Assembly (NCBI GenBank): GCA_902702965.1
Contig: CACRXP010000171.1
Location: 69,588-133,587 of the forward strand
Direction: 5' to 3'
DNA: 64,000 nt
From: Spirometra erinaceieuropaei
Taxonomy: Eukaryota; Platyhelminthes; Cestoda; Diphyllobothriidea; Diphyllobothriidae
The notes under the pieces were generated by a model that saw nothing but the letters and a program-made list of their open reading frames with translations, did no database searches and was not told where the DNA came from. The position numbers were made by a program, and so were the translations under genes. Positions 24,701 to 30,700 of the stretch are shown here, piece by piece (position 1 is the stretch's first letter; the number at the start of each line of letters is the position of its first letter).

Positions 24701-27700
24701 ACAAGGTAGAAACGATTAAAGATAATAGTTCATTGCATTAGGCTAACTGCAGGCGGGGTTCCTGCGTTAAATTACACACAGATATTCGGAAAATTAACTA
24801 TGGCCACAGAACTAGGACAGTTAACACAAAATTTATTTAAGAAGAAAACCCGATCTCACCTTAACTCAGATTGGCAGGCACTGTCGTAAGGACTTCGTTC
24901 ACTTTTTCACTATTCTGTAGACTACCCAGAATGTTCTCTTTGTATCTACGCTGGCTAGAATCCAATACGTTCGCGAAGTTCTAGTTGTTGGCGTTTTGTA
25001 TTCTTTACCCAAGCAATAGACTTTTCCTTAACTCTCTGCACGCAAAGAGCTTGTGATTCCATTTTGTAAACTTTCGTCCATCTGTGAACTTGATACATGA
25101 TTTTACAGGCCTACCAAGAAGGTCAAGGAGGAATTTCTACTGAACTGTGCTTCAGGAAAATAAAAATTGAACCGAAAAGTTTTTTATCGAGGATATTCCA
25201 CAGATTTTATGGCAGTCCGTAGTCTGTCTTTATACTGGGTGCATCACAGATACTACAATCATTCCCCCGTTTTCATAACAGAGTTTATTAGTAAATGCCT
25301 CACTATATAGTCATACCAATCCACGAACACGCAGACATTTTCGACACGGACAAGAAACTAAATTCGAGGTTGCCTATTTTCGAGGATTCTGTTACGAGGT
25401 TTGAAAACGTTTGTTAGACATTTCAAGACACACGCATGGAAAATGAATACTCATGCGCGAGCAAAATTGTTTCCTTCGATGGAAATGAAATAAAAAATAA
25501 ATTTCGAAAGTAATAATTAAGGAGGCAAGTTAATGTTCTTTCACATTTTCAGGCTGTTAAAGTGTATAACCGCAGTGATCTTTAATAAAAAATGCGAGTA
25601 CCCTGTATTTTTGATCAGTGTGTAGCTTGCAGATTCTTTAAGAATGCCGCTTTCAAAATCACAGTATATGGCGGTTAATCAACCGATCAAATTTTTAGGA
25701 GTAATCATCGCATTTCCACCTTGCGATCATACCAGCTATTTGTATAGCTCTTGTTGTTTTATTTCCTCATTTGCGGTGTAAGAAGAAAGCTTTTGTTAAC
25801 GGATATTTTCCTCCATCAGCCTCCGCCGTAAAGGCTGCTTTTACCGATAATGCTTTTCTCTTACATAGAAGGGTTTGTTTTCACCAAAGCGCTCGTCAGG
25901 GTGCATACCTTTATCAAACTACACAAAGAGATTAACTGGGACAGCGAATGTTTGCACTGCGGTTCCAGTCACCCTGCTTTGGTTATCATCCAATCATTTT
26001 AAATCTGGCCAAACCTGAACCAGTGCGATGTTTGATTTCCTGCGAAAGCTATGAAATTGCTACTGTTCCTATTTGTAGTGGACACAGATGCATTTTCTGG
26101 TGTAAAAAAATTCTTCGGATCCGATGAAGACAAAGAATTTGTCGATCCATTCACCGTCGTTCAGTTCGCAGGGAAAGAGGTTCGTATGTCCCATTTGTGT
26201 GCTGCATAAATATCAAATTATCATCCACTTGAGGCTAAAGCTAACAACAACTAACCTTGGGACCTTTTATCTGCAGATAAAATCTTCAGTGAAAAAGGGA
26301 ACAGATCATCCAGAATGGTACGAGGAAATGAAACTTGCTGTGCAGGTAATTATTTGAGAAAACGCAAGACCATTTTTAACCGCAAGTACTTTAAGCAGGT
26401 TATACTTGCAATATATTTCCTTGTTAATTCTCAGAGTACACTACTCTTTTGTAAGTCTTTGTTTGCATATAAAAGTGAAGAACGACTTTTAAGTGAAGGC
26501 AGTTGAACACAAGATGTTATTGTCGCAACTGGTGTTAATCGGCTGTACTTAGACTCAGCGTGGACTAGTGTAAGGGAGGAGAAATTAGATTGGGAATTTA
26601 TGCGATCAAGCTTATTCACCAAAACCAGCTTTTTGTAATACTTGCGGAACTGTCGACTTTCTTTAGGCGAATGCAATAAAACCAGGAGGATGACTTTTAA
26701 ACGCCTTGTCTTCTTTTTCTTTCAGTTTCCATCAATGTGCGACAAACTTGTCATTACTGTTTATGACTGGTAAGTTTCACGGAGCTTAGCTTTACGCAGA
26801 CCCCCTTTGCCCTCAGTCTTTTTTCCATGCATGCAGATTATGGAGAGCAAAACAATCGGAAACGAGAGCACCTTTCTGGCAATACTGCCTCGAAATTTAT
26901 TTTGTCATAGATACTTCGCTTCTTGTTTTTTTTCAATCGTACTTTGGTCTTCTACTACAGAAGGCAGCAAAGAATAAGTGCCGTTTTCGTAAGAAAAGAA
27001 CAAAAAAGCAAACTACAGACAACATGTATCATGATTTTTAAAAAGATGCATTAAGTACTGACGTCCATAGTAATGGAAGTCAGTGACATGAATTTGTGGG
27101 CTTCTGCTCAGTATGTGCGTTTGGTTTGAAGCTAAACTGATAACTATAAGAAGGAGGCTGGCGAGAAACCGCTGGTTGCCCTAACCTCCTAAAATCTCTA
27201 GACGGGCACTTAAGCCCCACTTATCCGACCAAGTACCTAAAATGTAAAGTTTGACCTTGCATATGGGACTCTCATATTGTTATTAAATCAACAAGGAATT
27301 TTGGAGTGACCTGTGAGCGCGGATATGAGAGGAGTAATAAATCGCAGCAAAGTTTTTATCAATTCCACGTTGACCGATTATAGGAGATTTGAAGTGGCTG
27401 TCAAACAACAGAATTACTGGAAAGAAGTTTTTCATACCGCAAACTTGGCATGGAAAAGATATGTCTTCAAGTGGCCAGATGATAACGTTTGAGCTGATTT
27501 CTGTGCGTCTAACGGCACGGCTCGGCTCTACTAACAGCGTAAAGAATTCCATGCCTATGTAACGCCCAGGAACATACGTACCACAAGATCCTCTTTGGTC
27601 TTCGTTGCGCGTGACATTTAGGATTAAGGTCCAGCAACTTTTATGCACTTACTTTGTAATGTCCATTATAGCCTCTCTGTTAACGTCTAATACAGGGACA

Positions 27701-30700
27701 AAGTATCGAAAAATGACCCCGTTGGAACAGCATACATCAACATCAATGACATTTCCGCACTTCGAGAAGGCGAAGACGGTTAGTTCCCACAACCGCTATT
27801 TTGAGCGTCGTTGCGTCATCAAGCCTAACCAGACTCATCGTTTATTCTGCACAGAGACCTTTCACACCGCAATCATATTAACCATGTCTAATACACCTGC
27901 GTTTGCCAGCTCTGATCAGCACTAACGTATTGCCGAAGATCCATTTGAGCGCAAAATCCTTCCTGTTTACTCTATTGCACCCTTACAAACTACTTTTTCG
28001 TCCGTTGAGAAGGGAGTATTTCTAAGTACAAACGTCAGTCGCCGGAAGGACTGAATTCAGGATTGGTGTTGATGCCCATTGCACTGAACGTACCTGTAGA
28101 CTGACTAGATTCTGTCAACATCGCATTGGATTACGCGAAAGACGTTAATTTGGGTTAAGAGATTTCCCAAGTAACATTTAATTCCTTGTAATACAGGGAC
28201 AAAGCAACATCGGATGACCCCATTGGAAGGCATTACCTAAAACTGAATGAGATCGCCTTCCAAGGAGAAGTTTCTGGTAGGAGGATGCAATTTAGGAATG
28301 GGGTTGATCATGTTCGGAAAAAAATATTTTGTGCTTTTAAACTTCGTACACCCCAATGCATGCGCGCATCATTGCTTCTGAATGCACTATCTCTGCACGT
28401 ACACTGCTGTCAGTGTTTGCATGCTAAACACATCAACTTTTAAATCGCACGCTCTCATGCTTTGAATGGTACGTTATTTTTGGAATAAAAAATTGCAATT
28501 TATTTGAAAGGTCTGCAGACTAGTACCTGCTATACTTAGACCGAAATATCGAAGGCTGCAAATTAATGGGCCACGACAAGATTGGTCTCATTAGTTTTCC
28601 CTGTGAAAAACAGCTTTAAGCCAACTCTAAACAAGCATCTCTCCCGGGATCGTGACCTCATCCAGTGAACCCGTGGCATTCAACGAAATTCTCCGGTTCA
28701 CATGATTAAACTTATAATCGCACATACCCCGCTCGGAATGTGAGCAGCATCTTCACAAAGGCTAGAAAAAGGTTAGAACTCAATGCCATCTGCGAAATCT
28801 CGGGCCATCGTATAGTGTTGCCCACAAAGACGGATGAAAATTGGATTCCCTTTCCGGCTTAGTTACCGTTATCATTCACTACTTTCCAACCTCTAGGACC
28901 GGGATACCTGTGAATTGGTCCCCATTGACTTGCCAGTTAAATATTCGGGGCAGACGATCTATGCTCTGGGCATCTAGTCACCTCCTATCGGCCTCTGACG
29001 GCAACCACGTCATGAATTAACATTCCGCGTTGTTTTTTATTGGCCGGCGACAACTCAGATAGTGATTGCTGGTTACCATACCGTATCTTGCAAGAAGCCT
29101 AGATCCCTAATTCCAAAAGAAACCAGTAATATTGATTTGCACTCGGCAATTAGGATGGGCCGACAAAGACTAGGGTCCTGCCGAAGGTATAGGAAAACTC
29201 AATGGAACTCTCCTAAAAGTGTTAACCCTTTGAGCAGTGTTCGACAGAAGTCACGTTTCGATGTGGGTTCATTTTGTGTATCGGAACGAATGATACATTT
29301 GGGTCTATTACGCGTGTGTGCTGGTTTCAGATTCTAAAACATCTTATCTGACTGTCCAGTAGCTGGGCGTAGAACAAAACATAATTGCAAAGCACACGCT
29401 GCTTTTATTGATCTTACTACGGCCAGTATATTAGCATGACAAATGTGCATAACTCCGGTAGCCTTATTATTGGTATAAACGTCATAGAGTTTGCAATGGG
29501 TAGGTTGTTTTGATAAGGAGCAGACAAGAAGCGTAGGCCCTCATGGCGCATTAAGGTTGAATTTTCAAAGTCTGAATCTGATAGATTAATTACGATAGGT
29601 CCAATGGATTGCGTCCGTAGTATAAATCCTTTTTCGAACTGTTATAATTTTGTTTTGATGGTATGGGCTTAGATAATTCCTTTGAGCAGACCGCCTTTTT
29701 GAGATGAGTGTATGCGAACAAGTGATTCCCATTCTGTAAATCCTTCGGAAATCCGGAAGAGTCTTCGAATCCAGCATGCCCAAATGATCGTTTTTTCATA
29801 AAAGGATCTGAGAAGCTTCATTTAGACAGAAACGATTTGACTAAAGGCTACTCATTACTCCCCGATACTTCAGGCTATCTGCCAACGTTTGGTCCAACAT
29901 TTGTCAACTTATACGGGTCCCCACGCGAGTTTTCGGCTCTCGGCGACAAGTACGAGGCATTGAATCTCGGAAAAGGTGAAGGCGCTGCCTATCGAGGCCG
30001 GGTTTTCTGCGAATTATCTACTCAGCTCACGGATGAACCCCAAGAAAGCGGAATCGTTCCAATTAGCGATGATAACAAACAGCGCGTGCAGGTAATTTTA
30101 CCGACCGTACATACTGTATAGTGATTAGATAGTGCGCATTTTACAAACGAAGGCACTTATATACAGACTTTTTAAAATAATCCCAATTGTTAACAGCAAA
30201 AACTAGAAGCATAAATGTTTCCACACAGTTTTACTACTGATCTAAACATCTTCGAATTATATTGCTCAAAGACAAAAATTCGTGACAGGCTATCATCATG
30301 TGTTTTTCCGATCCCAGAAATTCATGAGACGCCGGAAGTTTATGCTGCACGCAGCCTTCTATCAGGCCAATATGGTAGACGTTACCGACGCCCCCGTCTC
30401 CTTCGAAGTAAGCATCGGCAACTTTGGTAACAACCTGGACGAGACTATCGGACCATCTGCTTCAACCACACACCCAACTAATGCAGTTTTTGATGGCTGC
30501 TACTACAACTTCTTGCCATGGGGGGACTCCAAGCCCTGCGTCATGGTTGATTCGCAGTGGGAAGATATTTCTTACCGACTATACGCAGTGAATATGCTTT
30601 CACGCATTTACGACGATCTGGTAAGACTTGATGAGCGTGCTTTTTCTATGAGACTTCACAAGCGTCGCTGGTCCTCGTGAATGCTTTTTATGACAAGGCC

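Follow-up and report, generated by a model that had tools for sequence, protein, structure and literature searches.

Two homologous, frame-locked exons in a tapeworm type-I ferlin gene, predicted to be used one at a time, would exchange loop 3 of the C2C domain

In invertebrates, mutually exclusive exons alter the C2 domains of Syt1, Syt34 and Esyt2 and have arisen several times (Craxton 2010, PMC2823689). Within the ferlins, dysferlin exon 17, which encodes part of C2C beta6-7, is left out in blood and kept in muscle (PMC9333456), and the alternate exon 1 of dysferlin lies in C2A (PMC2923515; the label C2Av1 appears once in PMC9333456). Mutually exclusive exons are predicted by WebScipio from length, splice sites with frame, and homology, with a default length-difference limit of 20 amino acids (PMC3228551). 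These papers, and those named by PMC number further on, are represented here by part of their content. Here we describe exons 13a and 13b of a type-I ferlin gene in a 64,000-nucleotide window, the whole stretch of DNA analysed, from the tapeworm Spirometra erinaceieuropaei (GenBank assembly GCA_902702965.1, contig CACRXP010000171.1, positions 69,588 to 133,587 of the forward strand; positions below count from the first base of the window). By their sequence the two exons are homologous, frame-locked copies, and very likely they form a mutually exclusive cluster, which would give two ferlins that are the same except for loop 3 of the C2C domain, the strand after it and the first part of the following linker.

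All features of the pair lie on the + strand. Exon 12 (26726..26769) ends with GACTG in phase 2 and holds the first Asp of loop 3; exon 13a (27696..27778, 83 nucleotides), which is present in the annotated Spirometra protein P0001, is separated from exon 13b (28197..28276, 80 nucleotides) by an intron of 418 nucleotides (27779..28196), and exon 14 (29874..30091) starts in phase 1. Version a of loop 3 reads D-K-V-S-K-N-D (27697..27717), with two predicted Ca2+ ligands and a hydrophobic V at its tip, and version b reads D-K-A-T-S-D-D (28198..28218), with the same two predicted ligands and A at its tip. Both exons are bounded by GT-AG introns, are entered in phase 2 and left in phase 1, and share 56% nucleotide identity over 26 aligned codons, with eight identical residues, seven of them written with the same codon. 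The joins 12-13a-14 and 12-13b-14 are open, with ferlin sequence on either side, whereas the join 12-13a-13b-14 stops within 13b (TAA at 28238-28240) and the join 12-14, with neither copy, stops in exon 14. The frame lock and the phases that a preliminary description of this stretch had proposed are therefore confirmed, as are, to the base, the lengths and positions that it gave for the two exons. Similar length, the same splice pattern and frame, and homologous protein are the features by which mutually exclusive exons are recognised, and the pair has all of them.

The run of 16 bases that had been reported across each acceptor was also recovered: TAATACAGGGACAAAG, made up of 8 intronic and 8 exonic bases, is found at 27688 and 28189 and at no other + strand site in the window. 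Its intronic half, TAATACAG, forms the 3' splice site of 13a (27688..27695) and, as the last 8 bases of the intron between the copies (28189-28196), that of 13b; this identity before both exons may be a remnant of the duplication or may reflect a splicing signal common to the two. Read by eye, the introns upstream of the two 8-base sites show no evident similarity. Splice scores lie below the gene average for both exons, the acceptors ranking 2 (13a, the second weakest) and 7 (13b) of 28 scored and the donors 7 and 8 of 27, weakest first; the scoring matrix was built without 13a and 13b, which biases their scores downward, and several other exon boundaries were themselves chosen by score. Weak splice sites are common in regulated exons.

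The likeness of the two exons exceeds what chance would give. When each exon was compared with the window by tblastn, the other copy was the sole second match at an expectation value (E) of up to 0.05 (E 4.7e-4). A profile built from 60 non-flatworm ferlin segments (out of 102 distinct segments, of which those from flatworms and those of >30 residues were left out) was run on all 1286 stretches of the window, on both strands, that measure 62-110 nucleotides between AG and GT and are open and in phase, 13a and 13b included; it scored 13a at 30.3 bits (E 2e-8) and 13b at 22.5 bits (E 5.5e-6), and the runners-up reached 8.1 bits, in a stretch overlapping 13b, and then 5.2 bits. No third copy of the exon was found in the window, either as a stretch of 62-110 nucleotides in the right phase or as a tblastn match with E of up to 0.05. 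Among 31 exon peptides compared with the window, a set that left out some exons, e.g. 13180-13332 and 38755-38955, a copy in a neighbouring intron was found for 13a and 13b only, and no further duplicated exon of the ferlin gene was detected; the other cross-matches linked parts of the ferlin that are homologous to one another, such as its C2 or DysF regions, and there was one antisense self-match.

The decisive evidence from beyond the window is that the same exchange is seen in protein models from other animals, above all oysters. Protein searches gathered 273 proteins (the first search with 120 of 1871 matches listed), in 183 of which a pattern located 184 segments corresponding to exon 13, a chosen part of these being listed; 18 of the 90 that it missed were read directly. 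In the oyster Ostrea edulis, the predicted isoforms P0024, P0032 and P0037 have identical aligned flanks (459/459 and 1568/1568 residues) around segments that are pairwise identical at 15/26, 8/26 and 12/26 positions. P0032 and P0037 align without a gap over 2053 residues, and all 14 differences between them fall at residues 462-484, within the exon limits, and each of the 14 Ostrea models among the matches listed has a single version out of the three, which are represented by 2, 2 and 10 models. Saccostrea echinata has two versions (P0031 and P0048), with flanks identical at 461/461 and 1560/1560 and the segment at 13/26. Among the ten models with the third Ostrea version, eight (P0039-P0042, P0044-P0047) end the segment with GELGPEDGF, a few residues more than the GELGF of P0037 and P0043, which by its sequence is an apparent second small splice choice.

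Different versions within alike flanks also occur between other pairs. P0036 and P0056, taken as cephalopod-like by a guess from the Octopus protein P0038, share 9/26 positions of the segment and 87-89% of the flanks, and since each lies on a contig of ~6.6 kb both were very likely read from messenger RNA. In the schistosomes, P0010 of S. haematobium is a-like and P0012 of S. japonicum b-like, with flanks at 86% and 90% identity around a segment at 46%; the P0012 segment is 69% like that of Opisthorchis P0015, and the S. haematobium segment shares 89% with that of Trichobilharzia. Because the flanks are alike and the segments differ, the two exons probably sit together in a single schistosome gene, and the annotations would have picked different ones. 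Neighbouring a-like and b-like ferlin genes, which some flukes seem to have, could mimic the pattern of an exon swap, but for P0010 and P0012 this is disfavoured by the likeness of their flanks. Opisthorchis felineus seemingly has two neighbouring type-I ferlin genes (P0015, b-like, and P0030, a-like), and the Paragonimus heterotremus model P0218, of 3370 residues, fuses two ferlins.

How old the duplication is was approached with a tree of 35 chosen segments and a few flanking residues, in which the a and b labels were assigned by us from the segment itself and no label was given to the rows from Macrostomum, molluscs and human. Exon 13b falls together with b-like segments of four trematode rows (support 84/61, recovered in 88% of 200 bootstrap trees), and a single change is enough to part the 14 flatworm rows labelled a-like from the 5 labelled b-like, a split which is weak because the alignment has 36 columns only. 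The segments mildly favour a duplication that would predate the split of tapeworms and flukes, and the exon cluster is perhaps of early lophotrochozoan age. Whether the oyster, cephalopod and flatworm alternatives instead come from separate duplications of the same exon, a matter of age and not of function, is in our judgement evenly balanced: the tree is poorly resolved, and the versions of molluscs and flatworms fail to sort into two clear-cut mixed classes, yet the limits of the swapped residues are the same for oyster and flatworm, and flatworm a and b each have cestode and trematode members, though the sole cestode b is 13b itself. Slightly short of even, we would place the wider proposal that exchangeable C2C loop-3 exons are an ancestral lophotrochozoan device, predating the split of molluscs, annelids and flatworms, which would tune the Ca2+ and membrane sensitivity of ferlin from one gene; in vertebrates, by contrast, there are several ferlin genes, and C2C has a cassette exon.

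In C2C, the swapped exon encodes loop 3, including two of the three Asp that are invariant there, then a strand and the first part of a linker. AlphaFold models place it alike in P0001, which carries 13a (loop 3, strand 436-444 and start of the next linker), and in the b-like S. japonicum P0012 (loop 3, strand 311-319 and start of the next linker), with mean predicted local distance difference test values of 80-91 for the loop and strand blocks and 63-73 for the linker. In an alignment of 44 ferlins, D359, D380, D428, D430 and D436 of P0001, in loops 1 and 3, are invariant; D428 is encoded by exon 12 and D430 and D436 by exon 13, and all are kept with either version, so the placement in a C2C loop with retained Asp that had been read from the DNA is borne out. 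In the alignment with synaptotagmin-1, D428, D430 and D436 coincide with the loop-3 ligands of that protein, and the five Asp together would correspond to the five Asp ligands in loops 1 and 3 of a Ca2+-binding C2 domain. With 13b in place the domain scores 53.5 bits against PF00168 and with 13a 55.7 bits (cut-off 22).

Between the ligands, K-V-S-K-N of 13a has a net charge of +2 and K-A-T-S-D of 13b a net charge of 0. In parasitic flatworms the loop tip is V, I, L or M in 15/15 a-like rows (two of them, P0059 and P0218_1, identical) and A or G in 5/5 b-like rows; two free-living Macrostomum rows, b-like by their tail motif, break this rule with L and M as tip residues. Hydrophobic C2 loop tips enter the membrane in synaptotagmin. 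Because the Asp ligands are kept, both versions would still bind Ca2+, and because the hydrophobic tip is lost to Ala and the net charge is 0, version b is predicted to be the weaker membrane binder. Our guess from the residues is that 13b would make a weaker or differently tuned membrane sensor, inserting less into acidic membranes. Selection would keep both copies, a splicing regulator would pick one of them by tissue or stage, and messages with both or with neither would be destroyed as nonsense.

Several observations weigh against this reading of 13a and 13b as a functional, mutually exclusive pair. The preliminary description had held that exactly one copy must be used; the swap between P0032 and P0037 of Ostrea supports this, but the deposited Spirometra protein P0001 carries 13a only. 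A protein search with 13b as query returned none carrying 13b itself among the matches listed (120 of 273), the best row being P0001 with its 13a, and of the other cestode proteins seven have a-like segments only, while in P0009, the eighth, the region is missing. All of the oyster isoforms come from gene prediction, and outside the segment P0024 and P0032 also differ by one gap of 43 residues, and P0031 and P0048 by one of 11, both far downstream. Mytilus P0085 and the annelid Paralvinella P0261 have two versions in a row in one model, which points to mistaken annotation or else to exclusion that is not strict. In alignment scores, 13b is as close to Macrostomum (57) and nearly as close to its own 13a (54) as to trematode b-like segments (59, 59 and 56), with S. 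japonicum outside the ten best. The loop charge overlaps between the types (+1 in the b-like S. japonicum, -1 in the a-like Opisthorchis). The branch of 13b is 1.02 long and that of 13a 0.05, which would also fit relaxed constraint, and the ratio of nonsynonymous to synonymous substitution rates between the copies is 0.65, no strong purifying signal by itself, although over 26 codons, too few, it decides nothing.

The long branch, this ratio and the absence of 13b from P0001 are what would be expected if 13b were a relic, an old duplicate left unspliced in Spirometra and open by chance, a reading that we regard as unlikely. Exon 13b has kept its frame, both splice sites, its phase and both Asp, and still scores its 22.5 bits at the observed divergence from 13a; compared with 13a, it has a donor of similar score and an acceptor of higher score. 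When 13a was decayed neutrally to the divergence of 13b in 5000 copies, 3195 gained a stop and 1805 stayed open; 1574 of the 1805 open copies were scored by the profile, the best reached 15.5 bits and none attained the score of 13b, and 93 of the 5000 were open with both Asp.

Still less probable, indeed very improbable, is that 13b is a message-destruction switch, of which the protein matters little and whose inclusion with 13a would lower ferlin output through the stop inside 13b, since a switch needs no homologous, in-frame protein, which 13b conserves, and the oyster alternatives are full-length in-frame proteins; the role of switch and that of protein swap could also coexist. As a mechanism of choice, intron-intron RNA pairing was rejected: among three intron pairs examined, the best pairing, between the introns after 13a and after 13b (28019-28078 with 28967-29026), was matched by 4/100 shuffles, and is not counted as evidence because the shuffles did as well and it is probably chance. 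Steric exclusion by a short intron would be unlikely with 418 nucleotides between 13a and 13b.

The gene that carries the pair, also on the + strand, begins with an ATG at 615 and spans 61 kb up to the end of the transmembrane exon at 61685, and most or all of it lies inside the window. About 30 exons were recognised from exon cores and by tblastn with P0001, P0009 and P0003. From C2A to the transmembrane segment, the exon cores (615-61685) hold multiple C2 domains, FerI, FerA, the DysF region and a C-terminal transmembrane segment, as in a type-I ferlin; the transmembrane stretch and the DysF motifs were read by eye. The Pfam accessions assigned to P0001 and P0003 presumably fit type-I ferlin domains. 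The closest solved structures are human myoferlin and dysferlin, which are also the best PDB relatives by fold of the S. japonicum P0012 model. P0001, from Spirometra sp. Aus1, is the nearest deposited protein among the matches listed, at 99% over the 176-residue C2C query region, with few residue differences from the window outside it, as expected for DNA of that species or a close sister. The P0001 annotation ends after 1099 residues (last match 39575), and conserved ferlin exons, shown by P0009 and P0003, run on to 61685 (region 35304-61685). In the Schistocephalus model P0009, exons 12-13 are skipped and unrelated residues stand in their place; with P0085 and P0261, it is one of three deposited models that look odd at exon 13.

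In humans, mutations of ferlins lead to muscular dystrophy and to deafness. Natural ferlins that are alike almost throughout and diverge at a single loop and strand of C2C are matched pairs for testing the role of the loop, and with it that of the C2C Ca2+ site. A 321-residue ferlin fragment of Schistosoma japonicum was placed mainly in the tegument (PMC3688920, in part), so stage- or tissue-specific ferlin versions could bear on repair of the worm surface.

We found no description of a C2C exon swap in ferlins among the open-access papers listed, judged by title and start of abstract; PMC10227054, as far as the part represented here goes, concerns a shortened otoferlin. The preliminary description had known of no such swap in ferlins, and the case does appear new, while its kind is familiar from the C2 swaps of Syt1, Syt34 and Esyt2. 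There, as predicted for 13a and 13b, one alternative exon at a time recodes part of a C2 domain, but in other protein families, and the word ferlin occurs 0 times in the main text of PMC2823689. Dysferlin exon 17 resembles the pair in being a case of tissue-specific C2C splicing, in a part that comes after the swapped segment, but is a linker cassette that is included or skipped, with no exchange of loop 3 and its Asp ligands, in the content of PMC9333456 drawn on here. The alternate exon 1 of dysferlin likewise gives two versions of one ferlin C2 domain, but is an alternate first exon and lies in a different domain, as the corresponding part of PMC2923515 has it. Exons 13a and 13b have all three of the features that WebScipio looks for, and the WebScipio work covers other genes, with ferlin and misfire each occurring 0 times in the main text of PMC3228551. 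The ferlin swap is thus a device of a familiar type, placed at an informative site in a protein family that is new for it.

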